Source of the DNA: Nevskia soli
GTDB lineage: Bacteria > Pseudomonadota > Gammaproteobacteria > Nevskiales > Nevskiaceae
Assembly: GCA_026224805.1 (NCBI GenBank)
Contig: JAMFRN010000067.1
Span: 1-47,943, forward strand
DNA length: 47,943 nt
Direction of reading: 5' to 3'
Shown piece by piece: positions 7,595 through 42,889 of the stretch. Position 1 is the first letter of the stretch, and each line of letters opens with the position of its first letter. Under the pieces are notes generated by a model that was given only the letters and a program-made list of their open reading frames with translations, was not told where the DNA came from and ran no database searches. Made by a program: the position numbers and the translations under genes.

Positions 7595-8971
7595 TCAGGC
7601 GCCGGTTCCGCTGGCAGCGGACTGCCGCTGCCCCGCCGATGATCGCACGTCCCAGATCAGGCGCGGGTCGAAGCTCATCGAAGCCAGCATGGTCAGAATG
7701 ACCACGGCACAGAAAGCGACGATGCCGGGGCCCGCCCGCACTTCGGCGACAATGCCGAAGCGTACCAGCGACAGCAGCAGCGCCACCACGAATACATCGA
7801 GCATCGACCAGCGGCCGATCAGCTCCACCATGCGGTAGATACGCGTACGCTCGCGCCGCCAGCGCGCCGAGCCGCGCCTGCTGCTGAGCAGCAGAAGCAA
7901 CAGGCAGGCCATCTTGATCAGCGGCACGGCAATGCTGGCGGTAAATACGATCACGGCCAGATCCCAGGCGCCGCCGTTCCACAATTCCACCACGCCGGAC
8001 AGGATGGTGTTGTCATCGGCCCCGAACAGGGTGGCGGTGTGCATGACCGTGAGGACGTTGGCCGGGATATACAGGATTGCCGCGGCGATCAGGAAGGCCC
8101 AAGTGCGGGCATGGCTGTCGGGCTTGCGCCGGTGCAGCGACTGGTCGCAGCGCGGGCAGAAACATGGCGAGGACTTCCGCGCGCCATGCAACACCAGTCC
8201 GCAGGCGTGACAGGCCAGCAGATTCAGATCGCCAGCCCGCACCTGCGCCGGGCGCTCCTGCCGGAAAGCGCTGTGCTGCCCCACTCCACCCGCTGCGGCA
8301 TTGGCCGGGGCTTCACCCGCGTCCACCGCAAGCGGCCGCCGCCGCAGCGCATCTCCGCCAGCCGCGCTCACGATCCGTTCCGCGCATTCCCACAATTCCC
8401 CGAGATCGCGCGAATTCAACCGGGTCAACAGGAAGGTCAGCACGGCGAAGGCCCACATGCCGGTTTCCGGCGTGGCAGTGGCCATGCCGCCCAGCTTCAC
8501 CACTGCCACCAGCATGCCCAGCACGAACACTTCCACCATGGTCCACGGCTGCATCTGCCTGAGCGCATGCATCACGCCGATGAACGCCACCGGGACCCGG
8601 CCGCGGCGCAACGGCACCAGCACATAGGCGTAGAGGCAGATCTGCAGCAAGGGGAAGAAGAACACGGTTATGGCCGCTACCGGCGCGATCGGGGAAACGT
8701 TGGAATCGTAGGTATCGACGATCATCTGCCACAGCGTCGCCTCGCTGCTCTTGCCGCTGACGCCGAGCAGCATCAGCGGATAGGCATTGGCGATGAGGAA
8801 CACCGCCAGCGCCGCCAGGGTCAGTGCCAGCATGACATCGAGATCGGAGCGGGAATTGCGGTACAGCCGGGCGCCGCAGCGGCTGCAGCAGGCCACGACC
8901 CTGCCTTGCAGGGGCGCACGCCGGTACACCGAATCGCAGAATTCGCAGATGATCAGATTGGCTGTCGACAT
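7595..8971 (-). CDS. pqiA: PqiA, integral membrane subunit of the Pqi system
   Basis: The 458-residue protein carries two tandem PqiA units. Each begins with a cysteine zinc-ribbon: C9-x2-C12 with C28/C29-x2-C32, and later CHACG with CPRCD. Each is followed by about four membrane segments (LALTLAALAVFLIANAYPL; WAFLIAAAILYIPANVL). The paired ribbons and the NAYPL/IPAN motifs are diagnostic. It is longer than E. coli PqiA (417) because of a Pro/Ala-rich linker around residues 215-245. It is first in the pqiABC operon; the upstream minus-strand terminator at 9093-9131 isolates it from the stress operon, so its own promoter should lie at 8972-9092. Confidence 0.95.
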   Translation of the reverse strand: MSTANLIICEFCDSVYRRAPLQGRVVACCSRCGARLYRNSRSDLDVMLALTLAALAVFLIANAYPLMLLGVSGKSSEATLWQMIVDTYDSNVSPIAPVAAITVFFFPLLQICLYAYVLVPLRRGRVPVAFIGVMHALRQMQPWTMVEVFVLGMLVAVVKLGGMATATPETGMWAFAVLTFLLTRLNSRDLGELWECAERIVSAAGGDALRRRPLAVDAGEAPANAAAGGVGQHSAFRQERPAQVRAGDLNLLACHACGLVLHGARKSSPCFCPRCDQSLHRRKPDSHARTWAFLIAAAILYIPANVLTVMHTATLFGADDNTILSGVVELWNGGAWDLAVIVFTASIAVPLIKMACLLLLLLSSRRGSARWRRERTRIYRMVELIGRWSMLDVFVVALLLSLVRFGIVAEVRAGPGIVAFCAVVILTMLASMSFDPRLIWDVRSSAGQRQSAASGTGA

Positions 8972-9092
8972 GGGCCGGCGGATGGTCCTGATCTGGAACG
9001 GCGCAGCCGGTGGGGCTGCGACTGGCGCAGTCTATCAAGGTTGTGGTGTGCTCATGGCAAGGTCCGGCAACGCTCCCGGCCGCGCGTGCGTG

Positions 9093-9131
9093 AAAAAAAA
9101 AGCCCGTTGATGCATCCTTGCATCAACGGGC
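9093..9131 (-). terminator. Rho-independent terminator of the GGA-hairpin RNA
   Basis: A perfect 13-bp stem (9102-9114 with 9119-9131) carries loop AGGA on the minus strand and is followed by nine U residues (plus-strand A run 9093-9101). This is the strongest terminator in the window. It ends the stress operon and separates it from pqiA. Confidence 0.95.
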
Positions 9132-9402
9132 CTACAACAAGCCTACAGCGCCCGGAAACCAGGGCGCGCCTTCCTTGGCACGATTGCGCGGCAATGCGGC
9201 AGGCTCTGCGGGCCTTGCGCTTTGCCACGTCCCTGGCCGGACTTCCACCGGAACCTCCTGTTCCGGCAGTTGCCTCACCCACCCCGAATCTGCTTCGATA
9301 AGACTTGGTGGCAACGAATCGGCGCCATCCTTGGCGGGGCTTCGCGGCGCGGACGCCACGAAGCCCCAACCGGATCATCCTTGATCCGGCATGAACGCAG
9401 CC
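9093..9402 (-). ncRNA. CsrA/RsmA-sequestering RNA candidate (CsrB/RsmZ-like)
   Basis: Read on the minus strand, this segment starts after the BON-gene stop and folds into consecutive hairpins with GGA exposed in the loop. Positions (plus coordinates) are 9370-9389, 9323-9336, 9248-9266, 9224-9237, 9168-9179 and the terminator hairpin 9102-9131. The arms are perfect and differ between hairpins, while the loop stays AGGA or similar. Three have the identical core CAAGGATG, which matches the published CsrA-binding consensus (RUACARGGAUGU). Two further hairpins without GGA (9336-9367, 9148-9167) add structure. This is the design of CsrB, RsmY and RsmZ. No separate promoter is obvious, so it may be a 3'UTR product of the BON operon. 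Confidence 0.75.
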
Positions 9403-10023
9403 TCAGCCGCCGACGGCCTTGAGGCCGGAACTGTCGACGCTCTTCACGCCTTTCACCTTCTTGGCGAGATCCTCGGCATGATCGACCGCATCCTGGCTTG
9501 CCACGGTGCCGGACAGGGCGACCACGCCATTGCTGGTGTTGACGCCGATGTCCAGGCCCTTGGTGACGCTGTCGGCCAGCAGGCCCGATTTCACCTTGGT
9601 GGTGATCCAGCTGTCCGAGGCGTACTTGCCGGTCTTCTTGGCCGCCTTGTCGGTCTTGGCGGCGACGCTGTCGGCCAGCGACGGCGTGGCGATCTGGTCA
9701 TCGACCGATTGCACGCCGTCCACCGTTGAGGCCAGCTGCTTGGCCGCCGAGGCGGCATCGGACGTCGGGGCCGAGCCGGTCAGGGTCACCGCGCCATTGG
9801 TGGTGGTGACGCTGATCTTGGCGTTCTTCAGGCGCGAGTCGTCGAGGAACTTCGCTTTCACCTTGGCGGTGACCGCGGTGTCGCTGATGGCCGCGCCGAC
9901 GCTATCGCTGTGCGGTTGCGGATCGTCCGCATAGGCGGCGCCGCTGAGCACCGCACCGCCGGCCAGGCAGGCGCCGATACCGGCGGCGATCAGGGTCGTT
10001 CGGAAAAATTTCCTGTTGTTCAT
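9403..10023 (-). CDS. OsmY-like periplasmic protein with two BON domains
   Basis: The 206-residue protein has a signal peptide (residues 1-32, cleavage near AYA-DD). Two BON domains follow: about 47-112 (DTAVTAKVKAKFLDDSRLKN, then ISVTTTNGAVTLTGSAPT) and about 138-200 (DSWITTKVKSGLLADSVTKG, then IGVNTSNGVVALSGTVAS). BON domains are thought to bind phospholipid. E. coli OsmY, with the same plan, is a periplasmic stress protein. The central Lys/Ala linker is typical. AAGGAGAG precedes the ATG. It is the last protein gene before the GGA-hairpin RNA on the same strand, so its mRNA 3' end and that RNA coincide. Confidence 0.92.
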   Translation of the reverse strand: MNNRKFFRTTLIAAGIGACLAGGAVLSGAAYADDPQPHSDSVGAAISDTAVTAKVKAKFLDDSRLKNAKISVTTTNGAVTLTGSAPTSDAASAAKQLASTVDGVQSVDDQIATPSLADSVAAKTDKAAKKTGKYASDSWITTKVKSGLLADSVTKGLDIGVNTSNGVVALSGTVASQDAVDHAEDLAKKVKGVKSVDSSGLKAVGG

Positions 10024-10089
10024 TGTTTTGCTCTCCTTGCAGGTATTTCGAATAGGTCCAGGGCAAACGTGGCTGCCGAGCGGATCGCC

Positions 10090-10254
10090 TCAAATCGAGG
10101 GCCGGCGGCCCGCGATCAGCGAAACCACGAACAGCACCAGGAAGATCAGGAACAGGATCTTGGCGATGCCTGCGGCGGTGCCGGCGATGCCGAAAAAGCC
10201 CAGGGCGCCCGCAATCAGGGCGATGATGAAAAACACAACGGCGTAGTGGAGCAT
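10090..10254 (-). CDS. DUF1328 (YtjA-type) small membrane protein
   Basis: The 54-residue product [20 protein letters not shown] onward has two membrane helices joined by a [11 protein letters not shown] turn and ends in the basic RRPSI. This matches the DUF1328/YtjA family, often found beside BON- and CsbD-type stress genes; its function is not known. AGGAG lies seven bases before the ATG. Longer in-frame extensions lack a ribosome site. It sits in the minus-strand stress operon, 66 bases before the BON gene. Confidence 0.88.
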
Positions 10255-10294
10255 TTCGTTCTCCTGCTTCTGGTCCGGCAGGCAGGCCGGTCTG

Positions 10295-10498
10295 TCAGGC
10301 GGCGGCGAGCGCCGGCAAGTTGTCCAGCAGACGTTCCAGCGCATTGAGCAGGCGCTCCTGCGCTTGCAGCACATCGCGGAACTGCGGGTTGACCGGATGC
10401 ACGATGCCGTCCCAATGCATCTGCTCGCCGTGCAGTCTCAGCTGCGACAGACGCTCGGCAATGATCTGGTTCCTGCGGGTGAATTTTTCGACCGTCAT
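10295..10498 (-). CDS. Small cytoplasmic protein, hypothetical (67 residues)
   Basis: The product starts [20 protein letters not shown] and is almost wholly helical, ending in [19 protein letters not shown] lies eight bases before the chosen ATG; an ATG six codons upstream has no such site. No domain is recognised. Its place between two small membrane-protein genes, all on the minus strand with 40-45-base gaps, suggests membership in the same stress operon. Confidence 0.7.
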
Positions 10499-10542
10499 AT
10501 CAATAACTCCATCCATGGCAAGCGAAAGACTTGGAAGTAGCC

Positions 10543-10758
10543 TCAAGCGTCCTTGAGATTGCGCCGGGATTCGCCACCGACGCGATGCAGCGGCGCCGGA
10601 TCCTGCTTGCGGTTCAGCAGCAAGGACAGAATGGCGAGCACCACCGCGGTCAGACACAAGCCCCAGGCCAACTCCCCGGATACCCCGGCCAGGCCGTTGA
10701 GGCCGATGAAGCCGGAGATGCAGGCAATCAGCACGAAGGCCGCAGACCAGTAAAACAT
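10543..10758 (-). CDS. Small two-helix membrane protein (71 residues)
   Basis: The product MFYWSAAFVLIACISGFIGL onward has two hydrophobic segments (residues 4-24 and 30-49) separated by GLAGVSGEL, then a basic tail. The glycine-rich hairpin resembles DUF1328 proteins such as the one at 10090-10254, so the two are perhaps distant paralogues. AAGGAG lies seven bases before the ATG. It is separated from the upstream exported-protein gene by only 16 bases. Confidence 0.75.
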   Translation of the reverse strand: MFYWSAAFVLIACISGFIGLNGLAGVSGELAWGLCLTAVVLAILSLLLNRKQDPAPLHRVGGESRRNLKDA

Positions 10759-10774
10759 CACAAGCTCCTTCGGG

Positions 10775-11032
10775 TTAAATGGCCCAGACGCCGATGCGCC
10801 GATCGTCCTGGTCGGGAATGAACACCGGCAGGGTGGCGATAGTGCCCGTGCGGGGTGCATCCAGCGCGCCGGCGTCATCCAGGGCGCGCAGCTGCTTCGG
10901 CATGTTGGCCTGCCGCGCTGGCGCCGGTGCCGGCGCGTCCGCGTCCTGACCGCGAACCCGCTGTGCCGCGCCGTGACCCAGCGCGCCGAGCAGGATGAAT
11001 CCGAACAAGAGAGGGAGAACGTTTTTATGCAT
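10775..11032 (-). CDS. Small exported protein, first gene of the stress operon
   Basis: The 85-residue product has a signal peptide (MHKNVLPLLFGFILLGALGHGAA), an Asp/Ala/Pro segment, and a C-terminus TLPVFIPDQDDRRIGVWAI. AAGGAG lies eight bases before the ATG. The mature domain is not recognised. It is the first gene after the candidate sigma-54 promoter (11122-11137), with a leader of roughly 80 bases, and heads the run of five minus-strand genes ending in the GGA-hairpin RNA. Confidence 0.75.
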   Translation of the reverse strand: MHKNVLPLLFGFILLGALGHGAAQRVRGQDADAPAPAPARQANMPKQLRALDDAGALDAPRTGTIATLPVFIPDQDDRRIGVWAI

Positions 11033-11354
11033 GACCCTGCTCCTTCATTGGTTGGCCTGATCCTGAGATTCGCCTGGCTGTGCCCGGTAAGCGGGGCCTC
11101 GCCAAGTCCTGTAACTATCATTGCGAGCCTCGTGCCAGATTGATCGGCACCCGGTCGCATTTGATTTATTCTTTATTTTTCATGTAATTACATATTTTTC
11201 TGGGCTGGCATTCGGAATCCCGGGCACGCGTTTGAGGCAAGGCCGTGTAATATTTACCGGCAACCAGGTGCATGGATCGTGTAAAGCCTGCCGACACAGG
11301 CCGGACAGGGGCTTTCCGGCGCCGGCAACGATCATCACAACCAAGGACGCGGGG
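11033..11354. other. Divergent control region of stress operon and sigma-54 activator
   Basis: This 322-bp region is much more AT-rich than its surroundings between 11155 and 11200. It holds the -24/-12 promoter (11122-11137). It also holds a perfect 12-bp palindrome ATGTAATTACAT at 11182-11193, about 45 bp upstream of that promoter. The palindrome is at a plausible distance for an enhancer or activator site, and the AT-rich tract could assist bending. No clear sigma-70 promoter for the rightward gene is visible. Confidence 0.55.
11122..11137 (-). promoter_or_regulatory. Sigma-54 (-24/-12) promoter candidate
   Basis: The minus strand reads TGGCACGAGGCTCGCA. Against the consensus TGGCAC-N5-TTGCA it has one mismatch and keeps the invariant GG-N10-GC. 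It points at the operon starting at 11032, and the divergent gene at 11355 encodes a sigma-54 activator. Confidence 0.65.
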
Positions 11355-12815
11355 ATGATGCGGGAGTCGCACCTCGAGGCATTGCGGGTTCTGTGGGTCG
11401 ATGACGACGCCGAACTCACCAGCGGCCTCGTCGACTATCTGGCGGGCGAAGGTTATGCCGTGGATTGCGCGCACGACCTGGCCAGTGCCGCGAGGGCCCT
11501 CGAGCAGTCCGCCTACGACCTGGTACTGGTCGACCTCGATTTGCCGGACGGCAGCGGCTTTTCCCTGATCCGCGATACGCCGCGGCAGCGCGCGCGGGAA
11601 TTCGTGGTGATCACCGGCCACGGCAGCGTCCGCACTGCGGTGGAAGCGTTGCGGCACCAAGTGTTCGACTACCTGATGAAGCCGGTGGAACTGGCCGAGC
11701 TGTGCAACCTGCTGGCCCGTGTCGGTCATGCGCGCGGCATGCCGCTTGCCGCAGCGGAGACCGGTGCGCCGTCCCGTCCCGAACCGGGGCAGGACGCCGG
11801 CATCGCCCTGCCCGGTTCGGCCGCCGGGGATAGCGCTGCGGAGCTGCTGCCCGGCAATTCCGCCGGCATGCGGCAAGTGCAGCAGCTGATCGCGCGCGCC
11901 GCCGGCAGCGACATCACGGTACTGCTGCAGGGCGAAAGCGGCAGCGGCAAGGAAGTCGCCGCCAACTGCCTACATCAGCTGTCCAATCGCCGCAATGGCC
12001 CCTTCGTGGCCTTCAACTGCGGCGCGGTATCGCCCGCGCTCATTGCCAGCGAGCTGTTCGGCCATGAAAAGGGCAGCTTCACCGGTGCCCTGCGCACACA
12101 CAAGGGCATCTTCGAGCGCGCCGCGGGCGGCACGCTGTTTCTCGACGAAATCACCGAGATGCCGCTGGACCTGCAAACCTCCCTGCTGCGGGTGCTCGAA
12201 ACCGGCGCGGTGACGCGGGTAGGCGGCGACCGCGAGCTGCCGGTCAACGTGCGCATCGTCGCGGCCACCAATCGCGAACCCTTGCGCTATGTCGAGGAAG
12301 GACGCTTCCGCCTCGATCTTTACTATCGCCTGCAGGTGTTCCCCATCGTACTGCCGCCCCTGCGCGACCGGCTTGAGGACATCGAGTTGCTGGCGACCTA
12401 CTTCCTGTCGCATTTCAGCCAGCGCCCCGGCGCTCGCAGCTTCTCCCCCGCTGCGCTGGCGCGCCTGCTGCAACACGACTGGCCCGGCAACGTGCGCGAA
12501 TTGCGCAATGTAGTGGAACGCGCCTGTCTGCTCGGTAGTGCGGTGATCGAACCGGAACATCTGCTGCTGCCCGAAAACGCGGCTGCCGGCGCACCTCCTG
12601 CCGCTGCGCCGACGGCGCCGCGCGCCGGCGGCACCCTGTTGCGCGACGCGGAACAGGACCTGATCCTGCATACCCTGGCCGCCTGCCGCGGCAATAAGAC
12701 CCGCGCCGCCGCTGAGCTTGGAATCAGCCTCAAAACGCTGTACAACAAATTGAAGCGTTTCGAAGGCCGGGAAGGCATGGACAGACCGTCTCCCGCTGCG
12801 GAAAAGCGGTCATGA
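11355..12815 (+). CDS. NtrC-type sigma-54 response regulator
   Basis: The 486-residue protein starts at ATG 11355, seven bases after AAGGA; the open frame upstream is non-coding in style. Residues 10-122 are a receiver domain (acidic pair D16/D17, phospho-acceptor D60, K109). Residues 165-400 are the AAA+ domain with Walker A GESGSGKE (193-200), the sigma-54-contact loop in the form GSFTGA (240-245, Ala to Ser but Phe-Thr retained) and Walker B TLFLDE (260-265). The C-terminus is a Fis-type helix-turn-helix (NKTRAAAELGISLKTLYNKL). It overlaps the next gene by four bases (ATGA). It is likely to act on the divergent promoter at 11122-11137. Confidence 0.94.
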   Translation: MMRESHLEALRVLWVDDDAELTSGLVDYLAGEGYAVDCAHDLASAARALEQSAYDLVLVDLDLPDGSGFSLIRDTPRQRAREFVVITGHGSVRTAVEALRHQVFDYLMKPVELAELCNLLARVGHARGMPLAAAETGAPSRPEPGQDAGIALPGSAAGDSAAELLPGNSAGMRQVQQLIARAAGSDITVLLQGESGSGKEVAANCLHQLSNRRNGPFVAFNCGAVSPALIASELFGHEKGSFTGALRTHKGIFERAAGGTLFLDEITEMPLDLQTSLLRVLETGAVTRVGGDRELPVNVRIVAATNREPLRYVEEGRFRLDLYYRLQVFPIVLPPLRDRLEDIELLATYFLSHFSQRPGARSFSPAALARLLQHDWPGNVRELRNVVERACLLGSAVIEPEHLLLPENAAAGAPPAAAPTAPRAGGTLLRDAEQDLILHTLAACRGNKTRAAAELGISLKTLYNKLKRFEGREGMDRPSPAAEKRS

Positions 12816-42622: not shown

Positions 42623-42850
42623 AGTTCCATCTGAACCACCCTCTCTCCCCACGTCAGAACTACCCCCTCTCCCCACGAATGTGGGGAGGGGTTGGGGTAA
42701 GGGGCGCGCGGTCGAAAAAAGCGGCGCGGTTCTTTTACTAAGGAGCGAAAAGCTCAAAGCGGCCTCCCTAGCAACCTCATCCCGGCCATCCCTGGCGAGA
42801 CATCACCCGACTAATGCCCCCCCTGCCCGGCCATCCATGGCCGGGCGTTC
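42623..42850. repeat. C-rich repeat and hairpin spacer
   Basis: Two related ccctctccccac tracts (42640-42652 and 42664-42676) lie here. The second forms a hairpin with gtggggaggg (ccccac 42671-42676 with 42681-42686), a motif widely seen in intergenic spacers of proteobacteria. A further perfect hairpin, gcccggcca/tggccgggc, occurs at 42825-42846. No ORF is supported. Confidence 0.5.
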
Positions 42851-42889
42851 GCTGAAAAAACGATGACATTGAGTCATCGTTTTTTCAGC
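42851..42889. terminator. Bidirectional rho-independent terminator
   Basis: A 17-bp perfect stem (42851-42867 with 42873-42889, loop attga) contains A6 and T6 runs, so it works in both directions. It lies between the threonine aldolase and crotonase genes. The crotonase stop codon (42885-42887) is inside the stem. Confidence 0.93.

Follow-up and report, generated by a model that had tools for sequence, protein, structure and literature searches.

Does the 3′ end of a small operon in Nevskia soli give rise to an RNA that sequesters CsrA? A preliminary description of this locus proposed as much, and we examined the claim in the whole 47,943-nt stretch of DNA analysed here (the window), in its source genome (G000; 3.95 Mb, 84% complete) and in related genomes. 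The candidate is a 310-nt chain of hairpins on the minus strand (9402-9093) that follows the stop codon of a BON-domain gene, with hairpin 1 beginning 13 nt past that stop. Our best reading, to which we give a probability of about 60% on sequence and modelled folds, is that this operon tail acts as a CsrA-sequestering 3′UTR under sigma-54 control, like RsmW and RsmU.

The region 9080-9410 has a predicted folding energy of -177.4 kcal/mol, compared with -144.6 ± 5.1 kcal/mol for 100 shuffles (z -6.4). Within the chain, the exact core CAAGGATG occurs on the minus strand at 9376-9383, 9326-9333 and 9113-9120, confirming the three exact-core loops originally reported; four more copies lie on the minus strand of the window outside the chain. 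The proposed fit to the CsrA SELEX consensus also stands, as the chain loops agree with both that consensus and the ANGGAN hexaloop set out in the consulted part of PMC7652899. Five ANGGA hairpins with a stem of at least 4 pairs were counted (9380, 9330, 9232, 9174 and 9117, a set in which the weak 9232 is counted but hairpin 4, with its CAGGAG loop, is not), compared with a mean of 0.16 and a maximum of 2 in 1,000 dinucleotide shuffles, none of which reached five. This was the densest such cluster in the window and a 313-kb genome sample (5 per 310 nt versus at most 3 elsewhere), and six control motifs peaked at 3 or 4 in the same scan.

The chain holds nine GGA motifs. According to the fold ensemble, four lie in fully open loops (9380, 9258, 9174 and 9117), one is partly open (9330, where both G are mainly paired and 0.36-0.37 unpaired in a 321-nt fold), two are weak, mostly paired alternatives (9246 and 9232) and two lie in stems. 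These predictions point to about five credible GGA-loop hairpins, the last being the terminator, with two further ones weak. Thus, the original count of at least six was too high, while a multi-hairpin chain far above shuffles was borne out. A protein-coding reading of the minus-strand open reading frames present here (108 and 75 aa) was rejected, because a codon-model gene caller picks no open reading frame in the region and alignment indels are not divisible by three.

Upstream, the chain is preceded by a stress-type operon for small proteins and the BON protein (Table 1). A sigma-54-type motif scored against the -24/-12 consensus precedes the first operon gene; matches as good occur 3 times in 722 kb of strand, own site included. 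The motif is found in all four genomes with a syntenic chain (one mismatch in the window, G001 and G008; two in G006), and in three of them an NtrC-type regulator lies divergent to it; at G001:C457 a different gene is the neighbour, and homologues of the activator are found on other contigs. A palindromic block about 105 bases upstream of the motif, conserved in an alignment of the window, G006 and G001, is a probable enhancer site. The divergent regulator has a receiver-AAA-Fis arrangement; beyond it, receiver and HisKA domains were matched weakly, each under cut-off.

Table 1 Positions of the chain elements, operon genes and regulatory features in the window.
Feature	Coordinates	Strand	Basis or remark
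Whole chain, candidate CsrA-sequestering 3′UTR RNA	9093..9402	-	fold z; hairpin excess; structure conserved in 3 aligned genomes; covariance model match in a fourth
Hairpin 1, CCGGATCA-AGGA-TGATCCGG	9370..9389	-	GGA unpaired 1.0
GGA-free long stem separating hairpins 1 and 3	9336..9367	-	14 pairs
Hairpin 3, CGCCA-AGGA-TGGCG	9323..9336	-	short; other folds compete
Hairpin 4, CCGGAAC-AGGAG-GTTCCGG	9248..9266	-	GGA unpaired 1.0
Branched domain, closing helix CCAGGG/CCCTGG, hairpin 7 inside	9159..9237	-	3-genome alignment
Hairpin 7, CGTGCC-AAGGAA-GGCGCG	9165..9182	-	GGA unpaired 1.0
Intrinsic terminator (hairpin 8), loop CAAGGATG, 9-T tail	9100..9133	-	terminator scan
BON-domain (OsmY-like) gene directly upstream of chain	9403..10023	-	Pfam BON E 7e-36
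DUF1328 small membrane protein gene, same operon	10090..10254	-	Pfam 7.5e-16
67-aa operon protein	10295..10498	-	no Pfam match; look-alikes by eye at loci L258 and L309
71-aa DUF1328-like operon protein	10543..10758	-	Pfam 9e-5, under cut-off
First operon gene, 85-aa protein	10775..11032	-	no Pfam match
Sigma-54 -24/-12 promoter motif TGGCACGAGGCTCGCA	11122..11137	-	1 mismatch to consensus
Palindromic block TGCCGGTAAATATTACACGG, probable enhancer site	11243..11262	.	alignment of 3 upstream regions; putative function
Divergent NtrC-type sigma-54 activator with receiver domain	11355..12815	+	Pfam Sigma54_activat 3.9e-66, Response_reg 1.7e-19

A BLASTN search of 61 genomes, 18 of them Nevskia, recovered the element in 3 of the 18 genus genomes, including its own, with a 35-base fragment in a fourth (G011). 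The match in G006 was 80% over query positions 12-254 and 89% over the terminator; that in G001 was 73%. When the three sequences were aligned, 99.0% of the 207 cells of the named structure could pair. Changes on both sides affected 7 of 74 pairs, compared with 0-1 in each of six slid controls, and 2 of 500 shuffles reached 7. These changes are located in the long stem (3 of 14 pairs), hairpin 4 (one pair), the inner helix of the branched domain (two pairs) and the terminator. No variation was seen among G000, G006 and G001 in the closing helix or in hairpins 1 and 7, so arm variation at these two hairpins rests on the more distant G008.

This fourth copy was found with a covariance model built on the 3′ core, which gave matches in six of the 58 family genomes searched, including its three training genomes. 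The G008 match (52.9 bits) is syntenic, lying between a 71-aa gene and pqiA with an NtrC-type regulator upstream; pqiA is also downstream in the window, and the 71-aa gene, which has no Pfam match, resembles its counterpart there by eye. The remaining matches, in G011 and G363, and second copies in G006 and G001, resemble a different, longer dispersed repeat. The chain therefore has syntenic counterparts in three congeneric genomes (G006, G001 and G008), in the sense orientation in all four. Gene contexts at these and the dispersed loci come from our own codon-model caller rather than annotation.

In the manually read G008 fold, the open GGA loops ATGGAG, CACGGATG, CAGGACG and, at the terminator, CACGGATG recur in the order of window hairpins 1, 3, 4 and 8; GGA loops are thus kept at 4 of 5 hairpins on largely different arms. 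The hairpin 1 loop is AGGA in G006 and TGGA in G001 on the same arms, and hairpin 3 carries AGGA in G006 (closing pair broken), GGGA in G001 (two G paired) and CGGA in G008. Hairpin 7 is identical in the three closer genomes, and its G008 counterpart is doubtful. G001 has 3 ANGGA hairpins only, a number reached by 5 of 1,000 shuffles. The limited spread by BLASTN and covariance model counts against a sponge, as do chain stems of 8-15 pairs, longer than those of most SELEX ligands; very stable structure may be disadvantageous for CsrA ligands (PMC7652899, consulted in part). The chain is not a general feature of BON genes, given that 24 of 36 relatives scanned in other genera (from 80 loci) lacked a GGA hairpin with a stem of at least 5 pairs within 600 nt; the other 12 had one.

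The terminator, described at first as a 13-bp stem with a U9 tail, was recovered as a stem of 15 pairs, 13 of which are GCCCGTTGATGCA, followed by a tail of 9 T. Ten related operons were scanned at their 3′ ends with a single terminator rule; two (L308 and L314) of eight further regulator loci were excluded because they have no such operon. The rule found a terminator at seven loci, with GGA in the loop at four (window, G006, G008 and G017); none was found by it at G001:C457, G001:C145 or G367. The loops of G012 and G027 lack GGA, as does the upstream hairpin picked in G005, where a later terminator hairpin with a bulged stem and GGA in its loop was missed by the rule. In G008 and G017 the GGA loop is retained on different arms. 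Among 45 terminator-like sites in the window and genome sample, the only one with a GGA loop is the chain terminator itself. Because of kinship among the loci, close in the case of the window and G006, we give no p value; the comparison suggests that the operon terminator tends to carry a GGA loop.

The main rival explanation is a role in cis, in which CsrA bound to the chain and terminator loop would protect or terminate the operon mRNA with little titration elsewhere. Distant loci keep few open GGA loops, the terminator loop being the clearest (L310 in G017, L312 in G005), too few for a good sponge, and in Xanthomonas the parent mRNA of RsmU is less stable without rsmA, according to the consulted part of PMC7694677. 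Set against this, G000, G006 and G008 have four or five GGA loops each, which seems beyond what a cis role would need. We regard a mainly cis-acting element as the less likely reading, while noting that sequestration and a cis role on the operon mRNA can hold together.

Alternatively, dispersed palindromic repeats may have clustered here, in which case the GGA loops would come from the repeat and have no CsrA-related function at this site. The 14-mer CGCCANGGATGGCG had 155 matches across 18 of 18 Nevskia genomes, compared with 4 for its reversed control, and CCGGNNCANGGATGNNCCGG had 26 matches in 8 of 18 (control 0). From these searches, 56 loci with 69 hairpin rows were kept; 62 rows were intergenic and 7 lay in genes. 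Between tandem genes, GGA was sense in 17 rows and antisense in 24, or 11 versus 24 when the six rows of the chain element are excluded (p 0.04). Most of thirteen further loci in the source genome carry a common repeat that contains one strong CANGGATG hairpin, often with a second GGA hairpin, and lies near stop codons in either orientation. Because similar CANGGATG hairpins are dispersed in Nevskia without sense-strand preference, the chain may be built from pieces of dispersed repeats. Tandem arrays of double hairpins in relatives (see below) also favour repeats. As a full explanation, this account is nevertheless improbable: the chain is syntenic and sense in four genomes, shows compensatory changes and has relatives with GGA-loop terminators on differing arms, and RAYT-type transposase loci rarely carry such a hairpin (1 of 30 PF01797 loci in the genus). 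A REP/RAYT origin at the chain was rejected on the last count, and PF01797 had no match in G000.

Several related units were observed elsewhere. In the window, a double hairpin on the minus strand at about 42780-42860 (CGGCCA-TGGA-TGGCCG plus GCCAGGGATGGC) resembles the units dispersed in Nevskia. Double CANGGATG hairpins form tandem arrays, with GGA sense, at L251 (about 1280-1620) and L004 (1347-1745), in G007 and G011, respectively; G007 has four copies of hairpin 1 with a 99-nt period and G011 three, and the flanking genes look like thiS and thiG from translations read by eye. In G015 and G010, the unit lies, apparently in frame, within a long predicted gene (L255, about 1165-1265; L256, about 1045-1130) that resembles glyS. 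In four other csrA-bearing gammaproteobacteria (30 loci kept, L208-L237), the hairpin mostly belonged to repeats in which a variable outer stem encloses two GGA hairpins, and 19 of 28 intergenic rows had the upstream gene in sense. In one of these genomes, G248, five of the scanned loci are matched on their opposite strand by Rfam Ysr224. At least 9 matches to CGCCANGGATGGCG were present in 11 of 299 genomes, all 11 with csrA (157 of 299 overall); with kinship uncorrected and a 14-mer that also fits coding DNA, this link between csrA and CGCCANGGATGGCG density is suggestive only. It is doubtful, though conceivable, that in Nevskia and several other csrA-bearing Gammaproteobacteria many dispersed, repeat-borne double hairpins form a distributed sponge, of which the chain would be a set fixed under sigma-54, tying CsrA release to an envelope-stress-type regulator.

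We return to the sequestering 3′UTR and its relation to known RNAs. CsrB, CsrC, RsmX, RsmY and RsmZ end in a terminator, and several GGA hairpin loops followed by an intrinsic terminator were likewise found in the chain. They also share with it many GGA motifs in hairpin loops (PMC7652899, consulted in part), whereas the chain has no Rfam match, no own promoter found and a 3′UTR location. In the Infernal search suggested at the outset, no CsrB/C or RsmX/Y/Z match reached cut-off in the window, and at E ≤ 10 the only clan relative listed was RsmV, with 8 bits against a cut-off of 100. No Rfam family fits the chain. The claim that it starts right after the OsmY-like gene with no visible promoter of its own was upheld, with a consensus scan finding 0 sigma-70-like sites in 8950-11400 and no own promoter with a GacA/UvrY site. 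GacA-box-like matches in the window were at chance level (3 versus 3.5 expected), none near the chain. The architecture and terminator would also suit a CsrB/RsmY-type sRNA transcribed from its own promoter, but this reading is rendered highly improbable by these scans and by the 13 nt between the BON stop and hairpin 1. No terminator-like site was found between the BON gene and the chain; the operon itself contains a single weak candidate of 6 pairs, at 10680-10662, in a stretch where chance alone would give 2.2.

TwoAYGGAY (RF01731) resembles the chain in having two hairpins with a CsrA-binding motif and predicted CsrA binding (PMC4333381, consulted in part), and it had no match in 9050-9450 at E ≤ 10. 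It matched in 10 of 18 Nevskia genomes, none of them G000, G006, G001 or G008. Nine genomes were over cut-off, with up to 13 matches in G016, and the 30 loci kept (L273-L302) were all intergenic by the codon-model caller. By the tests made, the chain is a member of neither CsrB/RsmXYZ nor TwoAYGGAY.

The preliminary description knew of no such arrangement; 3′UTR-derived RsmA sponges are in print, and it is therefore no novelty. The following comparisons draw on the consulted parts of each paper. RsmW of Pseudomonas aeruginosa, an RsmA-binding RNA from the PA4570 3′UTR, also follows a small gene with no terminator predicted between gene and RNA, and carries 3 of 7 GGA motifs in outer loops (PMC4950607); its host gene differs, and those parts do not mention sigma-54. 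RsmU of Xanthomonas campestris sequesters RsmA, starts 25 bp past the stop of the comEA-like XC1332, is co-transcribed and processed and has no Rfam 13.0 relative; unlike the chain, it has three or four GGA motifs and belongs to another operon (PMC7694677). Together, they show experimentally that 3′UTRs can sequester RsmA. CsrR1 of Alcanivorax dieselolei is a predicted CsrA-related sRNA that likewise depends on its parent mRNA but derives from a 5′UTR (hfq) and is known from prediction only (PMC9788540). The chain lies in sense after a gene with neither promoter nor terminator found between, in a genome with a cognate CsrA (one PF02599 match). By position and anatomy it thus appears to be of the RsmW/RsmU kind, its sigma-54 control and GGA-capped terminator being putatively new.

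The presence of a cognate gene, on which the original proposal depended, was confirmed: the 84% complete genome has one csrA (PF02599, 85.4 bits, 63 residues). Since csrA is present, syntenic counterparts have changed arms and mostly kept GGA loops, and no own promoter was found, a CsrA/RsmA sponge of 3′UTR origin appears to be the best-supported explanation. What the analysis shows is the sequence with its promoter motif, a predicted fold with compensatory changes, the synteny and a csrA gene in the genome; transcription, promoter use, processing, CsrA binding and titration are inferred along the following lines. The divergent NtrC-type regulator would activate the sigma-54-controlled operon of small proteins and BON protein, and transcription would read through the BON gene into the chain and end at the GGA-capped terminator. 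The GGA loops, on the intact mRNA or on a 3′ fragment processed from it, would then capture CsrA dimers, lowering free CsrA and relieving its targets.

In the open-access literature, we found no paper with both Nevskia and CsrA. Among the matches listed for sigma-54 and CsrA, seen as titles and abstract openings, no title concerned a sigma-54-driven sponge, and at the same level no title on repeat or palindromic elements and CsrA concerned repeat-borne CsrA sites. If the sequestering reading is true, an operon tail would place the release of CsrA under a sigma-54/NtrC-type regulator, in contrast to control by GacA via a stand-alone sRNA. On the same reading, a CsrA loop at the tip of a terminator would be a simple starting point for the origin of sponges.
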